IMG/VR virus record: IMGVR_UViG_3300046471_000044
Coordinates: 1-24,621 of that record
Length of the DNA stretch: 24,621 bases
Strand: one strand, 5' to 3'
Origin: a virus
Positions 4,882 to 24,621 of this stretch are shown in pieces. The notes under the pieces are model-generated. The model did no database searches. It saw only the letters and a program-made list of their open reading frames with translations, and had not been told where the DNA came from. Made by a program: the position numbers and the translations under genes. Position 1 is the stretch's first letter. Every line of letters starts with the position of its first letter.

Positions 4882-6036
4882 CTAGCTCGGAACAGCAGGT
4901 TTGATCGGTCTGCTGACTGTCTGGTACAAAGCCAACTGTTCAGGCGTGAGCGGTTCCCGCTCTTCAAGCGCACGCGCCTCATCGATCGTCTCGAAACCGG
5001 CACCAATAGCGATCTGATGCGCCGTGTAACGCGTCTGCAAATCAGACCGTGCCGCAGCATCAAGGTTGAATTTAAGGTACTGACCGGCCACAAAATGGCG
5101 GTTGAACACCGACTCGAACCTGGTCGACCACGGCTGCAACGTGCGCACGGCGAACTTGATCTGATCCTGCTCCAAGTTCTTATACGTCAACGCCGTACCG
5201 TTCGCCTCACCGCCAACATCCTCAGGAGCAACACGGTAAACAGCCGCTATCTGGTTCGCGGTCGCCTTGATACCAGTCAAGAACGACGCATCCCCAGCCG
5301 GAAGGGTAATAGCCGTGTAATCCCAGTCATTACCAGAAACAAACGGTTCAGCGGACGACACCGACGCCACGAAACGCGACTTAGCAGTCTGCGCCTGCTC
5401 AGCAGTGATCGTCTTCGCTATGTTTTTCAAAAAGCCAGACGGAACCGTGCCCCTCCGGAAGAACTTCTTCCCAAAAGCCTGCGCCTCCATGCCTGTCTCA
5501 ATCTGCGCACGGAACAAACCGATAGGACTAAGGCCCTTCACCGACCCCGGAAGCACGTACCCGGGGATGTGCAACAGGTTCTCGCGCGGAATCAGGCGCC
5601 CATTCCAATAGAACCGGGCCGGACCATTGGTCTCATCAATCTCAACTTCATCCGGTTTTAACCAAACAACAGTCGCCGGAGTTTGCAGGCGGTCCCGGGT
5701 GAGTATGTAACCGTACGCATTGCCCTGCAAAAGCACCGAAGCCGCCGCTTGAAACTTCCACGAGTACAGATCAAGGTCATCATTCCCTGGGTCCGTGACC
5801 AGCCGCGGCTGAACCTCAAGCTTCTTCGGCACACCAGAGGACTTCGAGAACACAGACCAAGGGGCAGTCGCGAGCTGGTCAGCAATCAATGACGTGGCCG
5901 CATAAACCGGACCAAGACGCAACGCCGCCTGCACAGAACCAGCACGAAGCGGCTGATCGCCACCCGAACCCCACACATCTTGGAACGAAATGCTGCGCTC
6001 CTCGGAACCATCAGCCTTACGAAACAGGAGACTCAT
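4882..6036 (-). CDS. Portal protein, HK97 type
   Basis: 384 aa. The dodecameric portal sits at one vertex of the head and is the channel for DNA packaging and exit. Recognisable parts are VYAATSLIADQLATAPWSVF (about 44-63), SWKFQAAASVLLQGNAYGYI, LIPRENLLHIPGYVL with GLSPIG, and APEDVGGEANGTALTYKNLE followed by RTLQPWSTRFESVFNRHF, all typical of the Phage_portal family. Length is normal. ATG overlaps the stop of the small membrane protein by four bases (ATGA). Next comes the protease, as expected. Confidence 0.95.
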   Translation of the reverse strand: MSLLFRKADGSEERSISFQDVWGSGGDQPLRAGSVQAALRLGPVYAATSLIADQLATAPWSVFSKSSGVPKKLEVQPRLVTDPGNDDLDLYSWKFQAAASVLLQGNAYGYILTRDRLQTPATVVWLKPDEVEIDETNGPARFYWNGRLIPRENLLHIPGYVLPGSVKGLSPIGLFRAQIETGMEAQAFGKKFFRRGTVPSGFLKNIAKTITAEQAQTAKSRFVASVSSAEPFVSGNDWDYTAITLPAGDASFLTGIKATANQIAAVYRVAPEDVGGEANGTALTYKNLEQDQIKFAVRTLQPWSTRFESVFNRHFVAGQYLKFNLDAAARSDLQTRYTAHQIAIGAGFETIDEARALEEREPLTPEQLALYQTVSRPIKPAVPS

Positions 6037-6173
6037 TTAGCGATCCCCCGAGACACCAAAACCAACCCAAAACCGCCCGCAATGAACGCAGCCGGCCAGA
6101 AAATGAACGCAACACCAGCCACAATCAAGCCAATACCCGCGAGCTCAAGCACGGTCGTCACGACCTCACGCAT
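6033..6173 (-). CDS. Small membrane protein between terminase and portal
   Basis: 46 aa, missed by a length cut-off. AGGAGGCGGT precedes the ATG at 6173 and the stop overlaps the portal start as ATGA. After a short charged N-terminus (MREVVTTVLE) there are two hydrophobic segments, LAGIGLIVAGVAFIFWPAAF and IAGGFGLVLV, ending in SRGIAK. It should be a one- or two-span inner-membrane peptide. Similar tiny membrane proteins occur at this spot in other actinobacterial phages; their function is unknown. G/C-ending codons and the perfect SD support a real gene. Confidence 0.85.
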   Translation of the reverse strand: MREVVTTVLELAGIGLIVAGVAFIFWPAAFIAGGFGLVLVSRGIAK

Positions 6174-10048: not shown

Positions 10049-10310
10049 AGCTGTAGTCGTGATCTTCTGGGGCCACGCGCATGCGTTGAATCATCTCGAG
10101 CGTGATGTCTGGTCGTCCTCCGCGGTGGTGGCGGGCGAGCCAACTGTCGATGTCGTTGGCGGCTTGTGTCTCGGTGGAGTAGGTGCAGATCGTGACGCGC
10201 TTACCTGTTGCGGTGTCGATGATCTTGAACCGTGGTGCTAGCAACCGTTCGATTCGGTCTGCTGCTTCTGTCAACTGGTGCAGATCATGCACGTGTTCGT
10301 TTGCGTCCAA
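10047..10310 (-). CDS. Small hypothetical protein
   Basis: 87 aa from a TTG start at 10310, chosen because GGAGG lies seven bases upstream. Charged and mainly helical; the middle reads FKIIDTATGKRVTICTYST and then NDIDSWLARHHRGG, which could be a small alpha/beta fold. No recognised domain. Last gene of the middle operon, followed at once by a terminator. A 47-base gap separates it from the gene upstream. Confidence 0.65.
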   Translation of the reverse strand: MDANEHVHDLHQLTEAADRIERLLAPRFKIIDTATGKRVTICTYSTETQAANDIDSWLARHHRGGRPDITLEMIQRMRVAPEDHDYS

Positions 10311-10357
10311 ACCATGACCTCCATGTGAGGATGCGCCAATACCGTTTGAACGTCAGG

Positions 10358-11476: not shown

Positions 11477-11605
11477 TCACTTAAGGTGGGAGGTTTCCGA
11501 TTCGATGATCTTTTCGAGGATGCGTTTACCGGTAGGTGTGATCTCGTCTGGGTAGATGAGTTTCAACGCGGCGGTGAGACGTAGCAGAAGGTTCGCGTCG
11601 GTCAT
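11477..11605 (-). CDS. Tiny helical protein
   Basis: 42 aa: MTDANLLLRLTAALKLIYPD and then EITPTGKRILEKIIESE. ATG overlaps the stop of the DUF4406/DUF5664 gene (ATGA). Alternating hydrophobic and charged residues suggest two short helices. Not recognised. Accepted for the overlap, for G/C-ending codons and for the fit into the gap between two sure genes. Confidence 0.65.
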   Translation of the reverse strand: MTDANLLLRLTAALKLIYPDEITPTGKRILEKIIESETSHLK

Positions 11606-12390
11606 GACGTTTGCTTCGTTTGCAGTTGGGCGATGTCGGATGAGTTGTAACGGTCGTCGTTGCCTAGTCCGCGTTCGTGGAACGAGATCAACGCCAATCC
11701 CTGCCAGACGGCGTGTGCGAGGTTGAGGAGACCGGATTCTTCGTCGTAGTCGTCACCGTTCAACGCGTCTAACGTGTGGCGGAAGAGGGCGTCGTAAGCC
11801 AAAGACCAGTCGAACCCTTTGAGGTAGTTCAATCGGTCGTACTTTTCCGCACCGAACCCGGCAACCTCAGCTACACGCTTCAACGCGAGCGGGTCAAGTG
11901 CTGACACTTGGGTGCGTTTCTTACCCTTCATGCCGCCGGTGGATGAGGTGGTGCGCACCTCGGAGGAGGCCTTCTCCACCGCAACTCTTCGCTGATACTC
12001 GGTCTCAGACTCCAACGAGGTATCGACGGACGCGTTCTGGTAGATGATTTCTTTACCCAACGCTTTCGCTAACCCAATTTCGGCGGTGGCGCCTTTCGAG
12101 TTCTCCCACCCATCCAACATGTAGATGGCATCACACTTCGCAACCTGGTTGAGGTCCCACAGCAACGTGGCGGTCAGGTCAAAATCTTCGGAAGCTGCGT
12201 ACGTCATGAGGTCACCCTCAGCGCCCTCAAAATACGAACTCACCGAACCTGTGTCAAGGTCATGTTGGGCCGGGTTGACAACATCCCAACCCCCGATCGT
12301 CAAGGCCTTCGCGGCCTGGAAGAATTCAGGGAAGTTGAAGTTAGGCAAATTTGTCATCGGACCGGCTATGTAAATGCGCTTCTGGGTCAT
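11602..12390 (-). CDS. DUF4406 / DUF5664 (dATP/dGTP diphosphohydrolase-like) fusion
   Basis: 262 aa with two enzyme-like domains. Residues 1 to about 120 are DUF4406, a relative of nucleoside 2-deoxyribosyltransferases: KRIYIAGPMTNLPNFNFPEF at the start and a likely catalytic E104 in SKGATAEIGLAKALGKEIIY. Residues about 155 to 240 are the DUF5664 type (annotated as dATP/dGTP diphosphohydrolase, N-terminal): GFGAEKYDRLNYLKGFDW, RHTLDAL, DEESGLLNLAHAVW. A Ser/Thr-rich linker joins them. A role in changing the nucleotide pool or removing particular nucleotides is likely. SD AGGAG lies eight bases before ATG; the SD can pair with an upstream ACTCC (12398-12414). First gene of the middle operon. 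Confidence 0.82.
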   Translation of the reverse strand: MTQKRIYIAGPMTNLPNFNFPEFFQAAKALTIGGWDVVNPAQHDLDTGSVSSYFEGAEGDLMTYAASEDFDLTATLLWDLNQVAKCDAIYMLDGWENSKGATAEIGLAKALGKEIIYQNASVDTSLESETEYQRRVAVEKASSEVRTTSSTGGMKGKKRTQVSALDPLALKRVAEVAGFGAEKYDRLNYLKGFDWSLAYDALFRHTLDALNGDDYDEESGLLNLAHAVWQGLALISFHERGLGNDDRYNSSDIAQLQTKQTS

Positions 12391-12397
12391 GGTGCTT

Positions 12398-12414
12398 ACT
12401 CCTAGTGTGGGAGT
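12398..12414 (-). promoter_or_regulatory. Small hairpin that covers an SD
   Basis: On the minus strand ACTCC and GGAGT (12410-12414 and 12398-12402) can pair across a 7-base loop; the 3' arm is the AGGAG of the DUF4406/DUF5664 gene. It may limit its translation. Stem of only five pairs, so weak. Confidence 0.35.
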
Positions 12415-12435
12415 GATCAGAACCGTTTTCAGTTG

Positions 12436-12441
12436 TATGTT
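12436..12441 (+). promoter_or_regulatory. TATGTT -10 box of a leaderless-type promoter
   Basis: TATGTT lies six bases before ATG 12448, the spacing at which actinobacterial leaderless transcripts begin at the start codon. No clear -35 and no SD are seen. Confidence 0.4.
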
Positions 12442-12447
12442 TGTTAG

Positions 12448-12582
12448 ATGGCGGATGACGTGTGGGCGATGGTCGGGGAAATGTTCAACCTCGACCCGTT
12501 CACCCTGTTACGTCTCCGTAGGGAGTGGGAACGCGGCGACGCACTCTACGTTGTGGGTGTGCTCAGAGGAGCCGCCAGCTAG
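12448..12582 (+). CDS. Opposite-strand 44-aa gene
   Basis: The only plausible gene on the plus strand: 44 aa, MADDVWAMVGEMFNLDPFTL and then LRLRREWERGDALYVVGVLR. Codons end mostly in G or C, amino acids are well mixed and the composition looks like a small soluble helical protein. No SD, but a -10 box is at the right distance for leaderless expression. A hairpin (AGCGCG, 5-base loop, CGCGCT, 12584-12600) follows the stop. The minus strand here carries no reading frame that fits the operon. Not recognised; it could be a regulator or lysogeny-expressed gene. Confidence 0.55.
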   Translation: MADDVWAMVGEMFNLDPFTLLRLRREWERGDALYVVGVLRGAAS

Positions 12583-12583
12583 T

Positions 12584-12600
12584 AGCGCGAATGCCGCGCT
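12584..12600 (+). terminator. Short hairpin after the opposite-strand gene
   Basis: AGCGCG and CGCGCT with AATGC loop, two bases after the stop. No T tract on the plus strand, so a weak terminator at most. A second small hairpin (GGCCG/CGGCC, 12610-12628) follows the minus-strand gene that ends at 12634. Confidence 0.35.
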
Positions 12601-12633
12601 CCCACTACACCAAGGCCGACCGTCAGCGGCCGC

Positions 12634-12918
12634 CTATTCGTCGGCCCCGAACACGGCATCACGGGCGCGTTTAGTAACCCGGATAAGTTTCTGAACCTCA
12701 GACCGTTCAAGCGGGTCAGTGTAGAAAATCCCCCGCCGTTGCGGGGCCCCACCGGTGGCAATTCCGGCGAGATACCCAGTCATCTGTTCAACATCGAACT
12801 CGAACCCCAACTGCACATAATCCGCACCAGTAGGGCCACCCCAATGGATGCTTGACTCGACACCCTTACCGCGGGAGCCTCGCTCATCGCGGGCGAAATT
12901 GATCACTTCTTTAGGCAT
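12634..12918 (-). CDS. Hypothetical protein
   Basis: 94 aa from ATG 12918, GGGG-type SD (AAAGGGG) upstream. N-terminus PKEVINFARDERGSRGKGVE then SIHWGGPTGADYVQLGFEFD, and a C-terminal helix ERSEVQKLIRVTKRARDAVF. No recognised family. It stands alone between a long non-coding stretch and the opposite-strand gene. Confidence 0.65.
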   Translation of the reverse strand: MPKEVINFARDERGSRGKGVESSIHWGGPTGADYVQLGFEFDVEQMTGYLAGIATGGAPQRRGIFYTDPLERSEVQKLIRVTKRARDAVFGADE

Positions 12919-13186
12919 TGTTGCCCCTTTCGCTTAGCCGCATCGCGCGGCCTAACCTCCCATCGCGGGAGGAAGCCATAAAACGTCGGCAAGATTATGC
13001 ACTCAACGCATCAGTCGTAAGGTGCCGGGGTGGGGCTCGTGCTACCGTCCGGAAGACTGCCCCACCCCGCGCTGTTCAGTTTTCAGTTGACCCCACGGCC
13101 TGAGTCCAGGGATCATTCGCGGCAATCGACGCCGCTATTCAACCGACATGAACGCCGAGGCGTTAGCCGGGAGTATTGACCCATGC
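12919..13186. other. Non-coding, strongly structured interval
   Basis: No minus-strand gene with a start and SD. Stable stems are visible: CCTCCC-ATCGC-GGGAGG (12955-12973 area) and a 10-bp GGGGTGGGGC/GCCCCACCCC pair (13027-13036 with 13059-13068) that encloses 22 bases; the plus strand continues with GTTCAGTTTTCAG. This may be a terminator, an untranslated leader or a small RNA. Confidence 0.4.
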
Positions 13187-13258
13187 AGGAGGCGGCAGGA
13201 CTCGAACCTGCGTAACAACGCGACAACGCGTTGTGCCTTTCCTCTCAGCCACACCTCA
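13187..13258 (-). tRNA. tRNA-like element, anticodon unclear (possibly degenerate)
   Basis: Read on the minus strand: a perfect T-arm (GCAGG, loop TTCGAGT, CCTGC), a 7-nt acceptor strand CGCCTCC that pairs with TGAGGTG except at position 1 (with one G-T pair), T8 and G9, a 3-bp D-stem GCT/GGC with a GAGAGGAAA loop. No CCA follows (GCA). The anticodon arm is odd: CAACGCG-TTGT-CGCGTTG is a perfect palindrome-like stem, so the loop can be 4, 6 or 8 bases but not the normal 7. The specificity cannot be read. It may be a relict, a tRNA with an expanded loop, or a tRNA mimic. Confidence 0.55.
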
Positions 13259-13464
13259 CTGCACGGGAGAGAAAGCCCACGACTTACAGAGCCGCCACGT
13301 CAATGGCATCACTCACGCACGGGTTGTCGGCCTAGGTACGGGCTGTTACCGACATGGTTAGACCACGGAGTTGACGCTCCGGCCACGAAGTTATGCGCGA
13401 ATGTCAGGCCGCGACCAGTGCGACACCTGCACCCACTTCCGGAATCACCGCAATGACCCGACAA
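13259..13464. other. Non-coding interval beside the tRNA-like element
   Basis: No gene found on either strand. TGTCGG (13324-13329) and CCGACA (13349-13354) with inner GGTA/TACC pairs could form a cruciform or RNA stem. Downstream of the 55-aa gene, so it may be its 3' untranslated region. Confidence 0.35.
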
Positions 13465-13822: not shown

Positions 13823-13928
13823 TGATCCAGTAGTTGCAACTCGTCCGCACTTTTTCAGAGGCTCGATGAAACCGGCCCACGATTGCTTTGTCTGCGGGTG
13901 GAACTGCTGGAAGTATTTGGGTGCACTG

Positions 13929-17593: not shown

Positions 17594-17778
17594 CAGATGC
17601 TCCTGTACGGGTTCACGCCAAGCCCGTTTCGGCCGACTCGCCATCCTTCGGCCCAGGCTTCGGCTTTCACCTTCGCCAACCAACGGTCAAATTCCGCGAA
17701 CTCGGCTTGAATGGACTTGGTGTAGTCGCGCGGGTAGTCGTGACGGACCTTCTCGGTCGTTGGCGTGTAGTCATTCAT
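17593..17778 (-). CDS. Small helical protein
   Basis: 61 aa: MNDYTPTTEKVRHDYPRDYT, then QAEFAEFDRWLAKVKAEAWA and GWRVGRNGLGVNPYRSI. The second half is typical of short actinophage proteins in which a Trp-rich helix precedes a GW..G.......NPYR end. Overlap of 8 bases with the XF1762-type gene. Function unknown. Confidence 0.68.
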   Translation of the reverse strand: MNDYTPTTEKVRHDYPRDYTKSIQAEFAEFDRWLAKVKAEAWAEGWRVGRNGLGVNPYRSI

Positions 17779-18232
17779 GTCCTGCCACCCATCTGGTCTT
17801 CGGTTCGGTCGGGTGATGGTCAATGCGCGGGCGATTGTCGCGGTCCCACGTGCCACCTGCCGTGTGCCCGGCCTCGAACCATCCACTTGCACGCAGTGAC
17901 CCGCCATCCTCAGATGCGAGGGTGTAGGTGATGATCTTCGACGGTTCGTAACCGAGCGCCACACCAGCTCGGCGCAACGCCCCGTAGAGCATCGAGCAGG
18001 CGTTCCGTGTCCCGTCCGTGGCTACCCTCACAACCTCGAGGTAGCCCTGGGCGTCAAGCGTTCGCGCCTTCGGTCGGCCAGCGATCCCCACGCCATGAAT
18101 GGTGCCGTCCTCGTCAACAACAGACACGCTGAACTTGTGACCAGTAACCGGGTCGTGATGCCGGTGAACGTTACGCACATACTCGTTCGCGGCCCGCAAG
18201 CTAATGGGGCGAAGTCGCAGGGAGTCGCTCAT
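17771..18232 (-). CDS. XF1762-type GNAT-like protein
   Basis: 153 aa from ATG 18232, overlapping the initiator stop by ATGA. Pattern ISLRAANEYVRNVHRHHDPV, TGHKFSVSVVDEDGTIHGVG, ARTLDAQGYLEVVRVATDGT, NACSMLYGALRRAGVALGYE and TYTLASEDGGSLRASGWFEA is the XF1762 family, related to N-acetyltransferases. Such genes are common in phages of actinobacteria and proteobacteria and often stand in or near replication operons. The substrate is unknown. Confidence 0.85.
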   Translation of the reverse strand: MSDSLRLRPISLRAANEYVRNVHRHHDPVTGHKFSVSVVDEDGTIHGVGIAGRPKARTLDAQGYLEVVRVATDGTRNACSMLYGALRRAGVALGYEPSKIITYTLASEDGGSLRASGWFEAGHTAGGTWDRDNRPRIDHHPTEPKTRWVAGHE

Positions 18233-18957
18233 TCGAGTGCCTTTCTTGTGTCCTGTTCCATCAACATGCGACCCTGCTCCAACACATCCACCAACTGATC
18301 CTCCTTCGACCGACGACCCACAACAGGAACCTTCGCGTTCCCCAACCACATCCGAAACGCAGCATCCCAATCCCGTTGACGCCGATCGTTCGCAGCCGCA
18401 TGCGCACGAAACTGTGCCTCCTCATGCGGGCCGTTCACACCACGTGTTGTGGCGTATGCAACATGGGATGGTTTCGGTTCCCAGTCGTCGGGGAGAGAGG
18501 TTTCTGGTTTGCGTGCGCCTCTCTTCTTCGTAGAAGAAGAGTTATCTTCTCTTCTCTTCTCTTTGCCATCGTTTGCTATCGTTTTGCCATCGGGATGCCA
18601 TCGGTTTGCCGCACCCTTGCTACCCGCCTCGGACCGTTTTATGCGCAGATCAGCCCTTTTCTCTTCGATTTCAGCGCGCGAGGGGTTGTGTTCCAGGAAG
18701 TCGTGGATCTCCCAACCACGGTCAACGCGCACCCAAGAGGGCAAATCGGGGTCGTTGTTAGACAGTTCGTCCGCTACCTTCTGACCCCACCGTTTCAACA
18801 CAACCCGTTCGTCGATCACCCCGTCATTTGTCATGCGTCGGGAGTAGAACAACGCTTCGAAGAACGCGCGGAACGCAGCATCGGATAGGCCGATGATCTT
18901 CGGGTGTTCGTCAATCTCGATTGAAATTTCCGCGTACAACCGACTGTCCTTAGCCAC
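18229..18957 (-). CDS. Replication initiation-like protein (helix-turn-helix)
   Basis: 242 aa. GTG 18957 is chosen because AGGAGG is eight bases upstream; the ATG at 18963 would be only two bases from it. Residues 1 to about 90: YAEISIEIDEHPKIIGLSDA, AFRAFFEALFYSRRMTNDGV, then a helix-turn-helix region up to RGWEIHDFLEHN. A charged low-complexity linker follows (SKGAANRWHPDGKTIANDGK and many Lys/Arg/Glu/Ser). The C-terminal domain (LPDDWEPKPSHVAYATTRGV, QRDWDAAFRMWLGNA) is typical of phage replisome organisers. It probably binds the phage origin and recruits the helicase loader. Confidence 0.75.
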   Translation of the reverse strand: MAKDSRLYAEISIEIDEHPKIIGLSDAAFRAFFEALFYSRRMTNDGVIDERVVLKRWGQKVADELSNNDPDLPSWVRVDRGWEIHDFLEHNPSRAEIEEKRADLRIKRSEAGSKGAANRWHPDGKTIANDGKEKRREDNSSSTKKRGARKPETSLPDDWEPKPSHVAYATTRGVNGPHEEAQFRAHAAANDRRQRDWDAAFRMWLGNAKVPVVGRRSKEDQLVDVLEQGRMLMEQDTRKALE

Positions 18958-20822: not shown

Positions 20823-21320
20823 CTACCTCTCCAATGGCACGTAGGTGCCGGCGAGTGTTGTGGTCTTCAATCGATCGGCATCTGCAGCACCGTATGCAAC
20901 CAGGCAGGAGGGGGCACCAGAGTTGGCCGCAGCACGCGAGCCGTCTGGCTTATGGAAGTAGAGCCGTCCGTGGAGGAACAGGACCGCATCCGCTTTGCCC
21001 CACACCTCGGACACGAACCCGACCGTTTCGGTGCGAGCGAAAATCAGTGCCGTACCCTTCCCGTGCCCTGCGAGCTTCGCCAACCATTTCCATGCGGCGA
21101 ATGAGTAGGGCGGGTTCAACCACACGCGCCCCGACCAGACGGCGGCTAAACCGTCCTCGGGAAGTTCAATGTGGCGGGTGGCTGTCGGCCAGGGTCGCGG
21201 CGATGGGGCCGCGCACGGGTCTAGATCGAACGGACCAAGCGCTTCCGTGATGTGGGGCGGTGTCAGCCATGTCGTTGTTTTCGCGCGAGATGACTGATGA
21301 GATCCCATTGCGCGCGTCAT
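20823..21320 (-). CDS. Phage N-6-adenine DNA methyltransferase
   Basis: 165 aa. Matches the phage Dam-type family (DNA_N-6-adenine_Mtase): TTTWLTPPHITEALGPFDLD then DPCAAP, LNPPYS (69-73, the catalytic NPPY), and KADAVLFLHGRLYFHKPDG with GAPSCLVAYG near the end. It would methylate adenine, likely as protection against host restriction or to mark phage DNA. ATG overlaps the previous stop (ATGA), which supports the longer start. No restriction partner is nearby. Confidence 0.9.
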   Translation of the reverse strand: MTRAMGSHQSSRAKTTTWLTPPHITEALGPFDLDPCAAPSPRPWPTATRHIELPEDGLAAVWSGRVWLNPPYSFAAWKWLAKLAGHGKGTALIFARTETVGFVSEVWGKADAVLFLHGRLYFHKPDGSRAAANSGAPSCLVAYGAADADRLKTTTLAGTYVPLER

Positions 21321-21427
21321 TCGTCGTCTACTCGTGCGATCAGCGCGGCCACGTATTCGGCGTTTTTGAGTTGGTGCTGGTCATATGCGAGCGCATCAGC
21401 AACCGTGAACTCATCCGGAACATTCAT
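21317..21427 (-). CDS. Tiny acidic protein
   Basis: 36 aa: MNVPDEFTVADALAYDQHQL and then KNAEYVAALIARVDDE. Linked by ATGA overlaps on both sides. Helical and acidic. Not recognised. Confidence 0.68.
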   Translation of the reverse strand: MNVPDEFTVADALAYDQHQLKNAEYVAALIARVDDE

Positions 21428-21639
21428 CTTTCGATCCGTTCCTTGATCTCTGAAACCCACGCCCACGAACGGCGACCTTTGGGGGTGCGCAGCCAGACGG
21501 CCGTCTCGCGGTGGGGGCGGTTGTCCTGATCGAATGCGACTTGCGGGAAGAACGATTCGATGGTCTGCGGCTGCCGTCGACCGCGCACGGTTACGGTGTC
21601 CCCAGGGAGAACTTCTACCCAGGCAATTGGGATCTTCAT
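21424..21639 (-). CDS. Small beta-rich protein
   Basis: 71 aa from ATG 21639, coupled to the previous gene by ATGA: MKIPIAWVEVLPGDTVTVRG, then QPQTIESFFPQVAFDQDNRP and RSWAWVSEIKERIER. The WVEVLPGDTV and GRRSWAWV pattern is a small SH3-like or beta-barrel look, perhaps a modifier or regulator. Not recognised. Confidence 0.68.
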   Translation of the reverse strand: MKIPIAWVEVLPGDTVTVRGRRQPQTIESFFPQVAFDQDNRPHRETAVWLRTPKGRRSWAWVSEIKERIER

Positions 21640-23110: not shown

Positions 23111-23204
23111 GACAGTCACCGTCATGCCCTGTGGTGAGTGGGCACGCATACCAAACCCAGCCGCCGTTGACACGCACCGGAAACAAACGAGCACAATCAG
23201 ACAT
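23100..23204 (-). CDS. Tiny Cys/His-containing protein
   Basis: 34 aa: MSDCARLFPVRVNGGWVWYA and CPLTTGHDGDCHAQ. The C.....H.G.C type motif recurs in the frameshifted gene at 23652 (C..YRHPTGEVGHDGG). ATG overlaps the previous stop (TGATG) and its stop overlaps the next start by 11 bases. A competing frame covers the same bases. Confidence 0.55.
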   Translation of the reverse strand: MSDCARLFPVRVNGGWVWYACPLTTGHDGDCHAQ

Positions 23205-23365
23205 CAGACCAGCCCCAGTTTCCGCAGAATCAGCAACCGCGCCTCGGGGTCACCAACACGCAACCCAACCAGCTCAGCCACCTTCCGCTTATTCACCTCA
23301 TACGCCGCTTGTTCCACTTCCGACTGGGCATCAATGTTCGACGCCACCCACTCCAACTGACGCAT
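23204..23365 (-). CDS. Small helical protein
   Basis: 53 aa: MRQLEWVASNIDAQSEVEQA, AYEVNKRKVAELVGLRVGDP and EARLLILRKLGLV. Good SD (GAGGGAG) before ATG. Mostly helical with coiled-coil-like periodicity. Not recognised. Confidence 0.75.
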   Translation of the reverse strand: MRQLEWVASNIDAQSEVEQAAYEVNKRKVAELVGLRVGDPEARLLILRKLGLV

Positions 23366-23907: not shown

Positions 23908-24621
23908 TCACAGCTCGTTCCCGTTGATATCAACCTCCGCGAGAACCCGCGCCGACTTCGCCTTCAACTTCGGCGCACCCTGCGTATTCCCGTCAATTAT
24001 CGACAGTTCCGACACCTTCACCGCCACCTTCAAAAACCGGGTAGCCGCATCGAAGTAGTACTGGGCGTGAACGGGGGTTGGTGAGAAATGCAGACCAGAC
24101 CCGCAGAAATCACCAGGTGCCCAATTCGGGTCCGTCACAGTCTCACCGACCGGATACGCGAACCCGCGACCAGACTTCAAATCCTTGTCAACAGCTTTGT
24201 AGACGATAAACTCACGAGCCTTCCCCGCGCCCACCGTTTCGACGCCGTGATATTTGCGCCACCCCTTCGGATCGGTTCGATCGATCGCTGCCACGTTGAT
24301 CACCACGCCCCCGTCGGCTGTCGCCCGCGACGAGTGGAGGTGGACTGCGACGTATGGGGAAGCCGTCACCGTAGACGAGCCGTAAGCCCTCACCGTAGAC
24401 GAGCCGTAAGCCGTCACCGTAGACGAGTCGGAAGCCGTCACCGTAGACGAGTCGTAAGCCGTCACCGTAGACGAGCCGGAAGCCCTCACCGTAGACGAGT
24501 CGGAAGCCCTCACCGTAGACGAGCCGTAAGCCCTCACCGTAGACGAGTCGGAAGCCCTCACCGTAGACGAGCCGTACTCCGTCACCGGCGACGAGTCGTA
24601 AGCCGTCACCGTAGACGAGGC
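23908..24621 (-). CDS. DUF7666-like protein with octapeptide repeats, partial
   Basis: At least 237 aa; the frame runs off the right edge, so the true start is missing. The first 85 or so visible residues are tandem 8-aa repeats (SSTV-T/R-A-Y/S-G/D). Val and Ala fall at fixed positions, as in a right-handed beta-helix or solenoid. After VAVHLHSSRATADGGVVINV comes a globular part resembling DUF7666: FIVYKAVDKDLKSGRGFAYP, CGSGLHFSPTPVHAQYYFDA, FLKVAVKVSELSIIDGNT and a last strand SARVLAEVDINGNEL. Proteins of this design are frequent in actinobacterial phages; function is unknown, perhaps structural or ligand-binding. Confidence 0.75.
   Translation of the reverse strand, partial: ASSTVTAYDSSPVTEYGSSTVRASDSSTVRAYGSSTVRASDSSTVRASGSSTVTAYDSSTVTASDSSTVTAYGSSTVRAYGSSTVTASPYVAVHLHSSRATADGGVVINVAAIDRTDPKGWRKYHGVETVGAGKAREFIVYKAVDKDLKSGRGFAYPVGETVTDPNWAPGDFCGSGLHFSPTPVHAQYYFDAATRFLKVAVKVSELSIIDGNTQGAPKLKAKSARVLAEVDINGNEL
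24355..24621 (-). repeat. 24-bp tandem repeat coding for octapeptides
   Basis: Eleven units of the form TCGTCTACGGTG-ASG-GCT-TMC-GRC are visible, continuing past the edge. The repeat is in frame (8 codons). Changes are almost confined to three codons: ACG/AGG (Thr/Arg), TAC/TCC (Tyr/Ser), GGC/GAC (Gly/Asp). Two units near the edge deviate (CCG for ACG; GAG TAC). Confidence 0.95.

Follow-up and report, generated by a model that had tools for sequence, protein, structure and literature searches.

A probable orphan small-protein gene opposite the minus-strand genes of a likely actinobacterial phage

Introduction

Small phage genes that lie on the opposite strand and lack an SD sequence are easily missed by annotation. 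One candidate for such a gene occurs in a 24,621-base virus record, the whole of which was analysed here and is called the window. A sequence-only reading of this DNA had placed all other genes on the minus strand and had singled out one 44-codon frame on the plus strand. This locus raises the question of whether the plus-strand frame is a gene with a transcript and a product of its own, a chance opening in an intergenic gap, or the by-product of an RNA made from the other strand.

Results

The small frame lies in a gap between minus-strand genes

Every tested gene that matched a PHROG or Pfam family is encoded on the minus strand, in agreement with the sequence-only reading, and their products include terminase, portal, protease, capsid, tail, exonucleases, replication initiator, RusA and DUF4406, among others. 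The nearest named genomes for the exonuclease are those of Leifsonia, Arthrobacter and other actinobacteria, and the host of the phage is therefore likely to be actinobacterial, as judged by sequence. The small frame sits in a 243-base gap. A small gene on the minus strand of the gap was considered and rejected, as the longest minus-strand frame within it has only 19 aa. The features of this region are as follows.

11602 to 12390, minus strand: gene for a 262-aa fusion of DUF4406 and the dATP/dGTP diphosphohydrolase N-terminal domain (dGTP_diPhyd_N), with AGGAG before its ATG; divergent neighbour of the small frame
12391 to 12447, no strand: AT-rich spacer of 57 bp that separates the small frame from the divergent DUF4406 gene, 44% GC vs 58% for the window
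12448 to 12582, plus strand: 44-aa frame, a probable orphan small-protein gene, with a coding signal and a predicted three-helix bundle (residues 2-13, 17-29 and 32-43)
12634 to 12918, minus strand: gene for a 94-aa protein of unknown function, phrog_10659; convergent neighbour of the small frame

Codon use, rather than length, sets the small frame apart

Direct reading of the sequence confirmed the 44-aa plus-strand frame. It begins with the ATG at 12448-12450, ends with the TAG at 12580-12582, and its 44 codons encode MADDVWAMVGEMFNLDPFTLLRLRREWERGDALYVVGVLRGAAS. Because an in-frame TAG (12445-12447) immediately abuts the ATG, no start farther upstream is possible.

Codon use within the window was trained on minus-strand ORFs that we chose ourselves rather than took from annotation; these assumed gene sets comprised 43 ORFs for the per-codon ranking, 40 for the shuffles and total score, and 42 for GC and start signals. 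Per codon, the small frame had the top coding score among the 151 plus-strand ORFs of 35 or more aa. By total coding score it ranked seventh of 268 unassigned ORFs of 30 or more aa, and two of the six ranked above it are longer plus-strand frames antisense to genes. When the gap (12391-12633) was shuffled 20,000 times with dinucleotide content preserved, a plus-strand frame at least 44 codons long arose in 6843 shuffles, so the length of the small frame is unremarkable and its codon use carries the weight: length and codon use together were matched in 8 of the 20,000 shuffles. In a separate test of real against spurious frames, the training set for codon use was 720 long ORFs from 60 related phage loci, namely those among 80 loci whose GC was 54-64%. 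The small frame outscored 502 of 720 44-codon pieces of these real ORFs, pieces that were themselves in the training set, and of 2294 spurious ORFs, 22 scored as well or better (17/1320 antisense and 5/974 on the same strand). Together, the per-codon rank, the shuffles and the spurious ORFs bear out the good codon use noticed earlier. GC at the three codon positions was 67/42/76%, a pattern like that of the assumed genes (62/48/65%), and the overall GC of 61% vs 58% for the window shows no marked shift pointing to a foreign insert.

Four short minus-strand frames of 42-53 aa (11477-11605, 6033-6173, 23204-23365 and 21317-21466) had coding scores above that of the small plus-strand frame, and are probably genuine small genes themselves.

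The predicted product is a confident three-helix fold with no detected relatives

AlphaFold2, given the 44-aa peptide as a single sequence, returned the three helices listed above with a mean pLDDT of 96.2 and a pTM of 0.72. The control, one 44-aa chance ORF of the same window (10183-10317, plus strand), gave 56.1 and 0.23, a wide difference, though from a single comparison. Since the predicted fold takes in residues 2-43, it favours the ATG at 12448 as the start. The model had no significant fold match in BFVD or the PDB, and by sequence the peptide matched nothing at E up to 10 in the PDB, Pfam, NCBIfam, PHROGs or PADLOC. A possible likeness to a tail-assembly-chaperone fragment was considered and set aside; the peptide has no PHROG match.

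The divergent layout across the AT-rich spacer would suit a helix-turn-helix (HTH) mini-regulator whose binding to the 57-bp spacer would control the operon headed by the DUF4406 gene. The stretch VGEMFNLDPFTLLRL looks HTH-like by eye, and 6 of 24 weak fold-library rows were HTH proteins, BldC among them. However, none of those rows had an E better than 4.7, and none reached a TM of 0.4. VIA-align put none of three PDB chains at Z of 2 or more, and the lack of any Pfam, NCBIfam or PHROG match also counts against such a regulator. Because of the six weak rows and the appearance by eye, we built profiles from 27 HTH_17 and 27 HTH_3 domains of six actinobacterial genomes. Among 4782 reported small ORFs, the peptide ranked 200 with the HTH_17 profile (2.1 bits) and 336 with the HTH_3 profile (0.9 bits). 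With ranks this poor the helix-turn-helix reading of the peptide is not supported, and we regard the regulator as very improbable.

Searches with tblastn found no homologue: the lowest E was 5 among 50,697 phage records and 4 among 72,556 plasmid records, and 103 phage loci gave nothing better than E 0.46 over 19 residues. DNA-pattern and peptide-pattern scans of viral_contigs found none either. Among 398 genomes from the family of the Leifsonia genome, 66 gave hits with E no higher than 1, the lowest being 0.0225, but the best ten of these were chance-like when read residue by residue, three of them with an internal stop. Two matches at E 0.00287 among 396 genomes of the phylum were both rejected as lying within longer unrelated frames. 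Homologues with a conserved frame, which the sequence-only reading had proposed to seek by tblastn and whose absence it had named as one half of its own refutation, thus did not appear in any collection searched, and the small frame seems private to one genome as far as these searches reach. Frame conservation therefore cannot support the gene, though such privacy fits an accessory gene.

A frame opened by chance in unremarkable intergenic DNA would account for the missing homologues, for a length that shuffled sequence reaches so often and for the spurious ORFs that score equally well. It does not sit easily with the rarity of shuffles that match both length and codon use, nor with a pLDDT of 96 where the one chance ORF had 56. 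We therefore consider a chance frame unlikely.

The start resembles that of a leaderless transcript

Two short features flank the small frame within the gap.

12436 to 12441, plus strand: TATGTT, a candidate -10 box from which leaderless transcription would start at about 12448; a consensus match only, six bases before the ATG
12584 to 12600, no strand: perfect 6-bp hairpin, AGCGCG (12584-12589), AATGC, CGCGCT (12595-12600), starting one base after the stop and lying between the small gene and the convergent 94-aa gene

If transcription begins at the A of the ATG, TATGTT occupies -12 to -7 and its ANNNT core -11 to -7. No SD-like tetramer occurs upstream of the ATG, so that both the box six bases before the start and the missing SD were found as previously described. 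A TANNNT 5-8 bases before the start occurs in 7 of 275 ORFs of 35 or more aa on both strands, and in none of the 42 assumed minus-strand genes. Its presence at leaderless spacing appears mildly unusual by sequence, which is not proof. In the study PMC6448022, ANNNT lies between -13 and -6 in 4,833 of 6,090 M. smegmatis promoters, and leaderless transcripts make up 24%. By the leaderless actinobacterial criterion drawn from this study, namely ANNNT at -13 to -6 with no SD, the small frame qualifies. The hexamer GTGATC (12413-12418), 17 bases 5' of TATGTT, matches TTGACA at three of six positions by eye. No clear -35 was seen, and a promoter scan for sigma-70-type sites lists neither the TATGTT site nor GTGATC. 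Thus, of the leaderless-type promoter that had been proposed, the box stands, placed as in leaderless actinobacterial transcripts, but the scan lists no site there.

The hairpin that had been noticed after the stop is present and perfect over 6 bp. However, it is followed by CCCACTACACC, without a T run, and is not among the sites listed by a terminator scan, and so is no classic terminator.

The minus strand of the gap also folds

A longer repeat overlaps the 3' part of the small frame and the hairpin.

12524 to 12606, no strand: 14-bp inverted repeat read from the sequence, arms 12524-12537 and 12593-12606

On minus-strand RNA the arms pair perfectly with one G-U, whereas on plus-strand RNA there is one A-C mismatch. 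The minus-strand RNA of the gap (12391-12633) folded with a z of -5.47, and none of 200 shuffles was as good; plus-strand RNA from 12448-12625 gave a z of -4.04. Since the minus strand folds in this way, a structured RNA has to be weighed as a rival to the small gene: the gap would belong to the DUF4406 gene as its 5' leader or as a processed spacer, and the plus-strand frame would be a by-product. The fold z and the full pairing of the repeat on the minus strand speak for such an RNA. Against this, a tile scan of the window, done on the minus strand only and with fewer shuffles (20 per tile), placed the gap tile only 4th of 101 (z -3.6). There is no Rfam family at the gap, and no related DNA that could serve for a covariation comparison was found among the phage loci compared. 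Moreover, a structured RNA leaves the codon use and the confident protein fold unexplained, and we judge it improbable as the whole explanation of the locus. A folded leader or intergenic RNA may nevertheless coexist with the small gene.

The related phages examined lack the small frame at the corresponding place

The nearest phage found, L012, has an exonuclease 73% identical to that of the window phage and several downstream genes in common with it. Its corresponding interval, from the exonuclease to the shared downstream genes, carries tRNAs (tRNA-Gln and tRNA-Phe) and other sequence instead. Two further relatives, L015 and L103, have DUF4406-plus-dNTP-hydrolase genes and no comparable gap, the DUF4406 frame overlapping or directly abutting the frame upstream. 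The small gene is thus absent from the same place in the relatives examined. The other material in L012 and the missing gap in L015 and L103 speak for an accessory character of the small frame.

The window has a tRNA gene of its own at 13185-13259 (minus strand), for which ARAGORN prints a two-base anticodon only and which scores 37.5 bits with the Rfam tRNA model. By this tRNA, a 58-nt stretch at 13117-13176 (minus strand), apparently non-coding, is 88% identical to L012 6118-6175 and contains a GC-rich hairpin; among the viral contigs, its core pattern was found in that of L012 alone. A 98-column block at about 13823-13917 (minus strand), directly beyond the exonuclease gene, is 87% identical to L012 5686-5780 and closes with a long perfect stretch, after which divergence is sharp. 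A short frame in this block encodes FQQFHP...KCGRVATTGS, and its exact core was found only in the contig of L012.

The favoured reading is an independently transcribed accessory gene

The coding signal, the codon-position GC, the confident fold, the promoter-like box and the AT-rich spacer favour a real gene. We therefore hold it reasonably probable that the small frame is an independently transcribed orphan accessory (moron-like) gene of a tailed actinobacterial phage. In the mechanism that the sequence suggests, the TATGTT box in the AT-rich divergent spacer would direct RNA polymerase to initiate at the ATG or beside it. Translation of the transcript would need neither leader nor SD, and the transcript would end near the hairpin between the convergent genes. 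The predicted product is a soluble 44-residue three-helix protein. From its size, fold type and placement, it would most likely act by binding to another protein, either of the host or of the phage. As the sequence-only reading proposed, the gene may be expressed while the rest of the phage is silent, or its transcript may be antisense to the leader of the DUF4406 gene.

A bolder version combines both strands. The frame would belong to an unseen family of three-helix mini-proteins, be expressed leaderless when the minus-strand programme is off, and have a transcript that also runs antisense to a folded leader, that of the DUF4406/dNTP-hydrolase operon. One short locus would then provide an antisense switch as well as a protein directed at the host. 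We give this combination very little credence.

The probable small gene resembles morons and leaderless small ORFs

Morons are accessory genes of temperate phages that have their own promoter and terminator and are expressed from the prophage; a base composition unlike that of the phage is a common, though not universal, mark. Like these, the small gene is single, has the opposite orientation and a candidate promoter of its own, and the relatives examined do not carry it at that place. Unlike them, it has only a candidate promoter and a hairpin, its GC is close to that of the window, and no lysogeny gene was seen in its 24.6-kb fragment, where the gene products tested included neither an integrase nor a repressor.

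The likeness extends to the leaderless small ORFs of M. smegmatis described in PMC6448022: the ATG lies at the predicted transcript start, ANNNT lies at -11 to -7, and there is no SD. There, 5' ends were mapped, whereas the small gene here is known from sequence alone.

If real, the small gene is ordinary in kind, one more of a known and common kind, and by itself it settles no long-standing question. If expressed, it would provide a testable case in which an actinobacterial phage makes an orphan mini-protein from a leaderless transcript, and would show that the confidence of single-sequence folding is useful for filtering candidate genes of this sort.

Other features of the window

A perfect 11-bp inverted repeat, CGGGGTGGGGC / GCCCCACCCCG, with its arms 22 bases apart, lies at 13026-13069, in non-coding DNA ahead of the 94-aa gene. 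For 17771-18370 (minus strand), the product matches phrog_1384, a family of Mom-like DNA modification proteins, at E 3.5e-32. At 23908-24621 (minus strand), a gene truncated at the end of the window codes for numerous YGSSTVRASDSSTVTA-type repeats, and its product matches phrog_15773.
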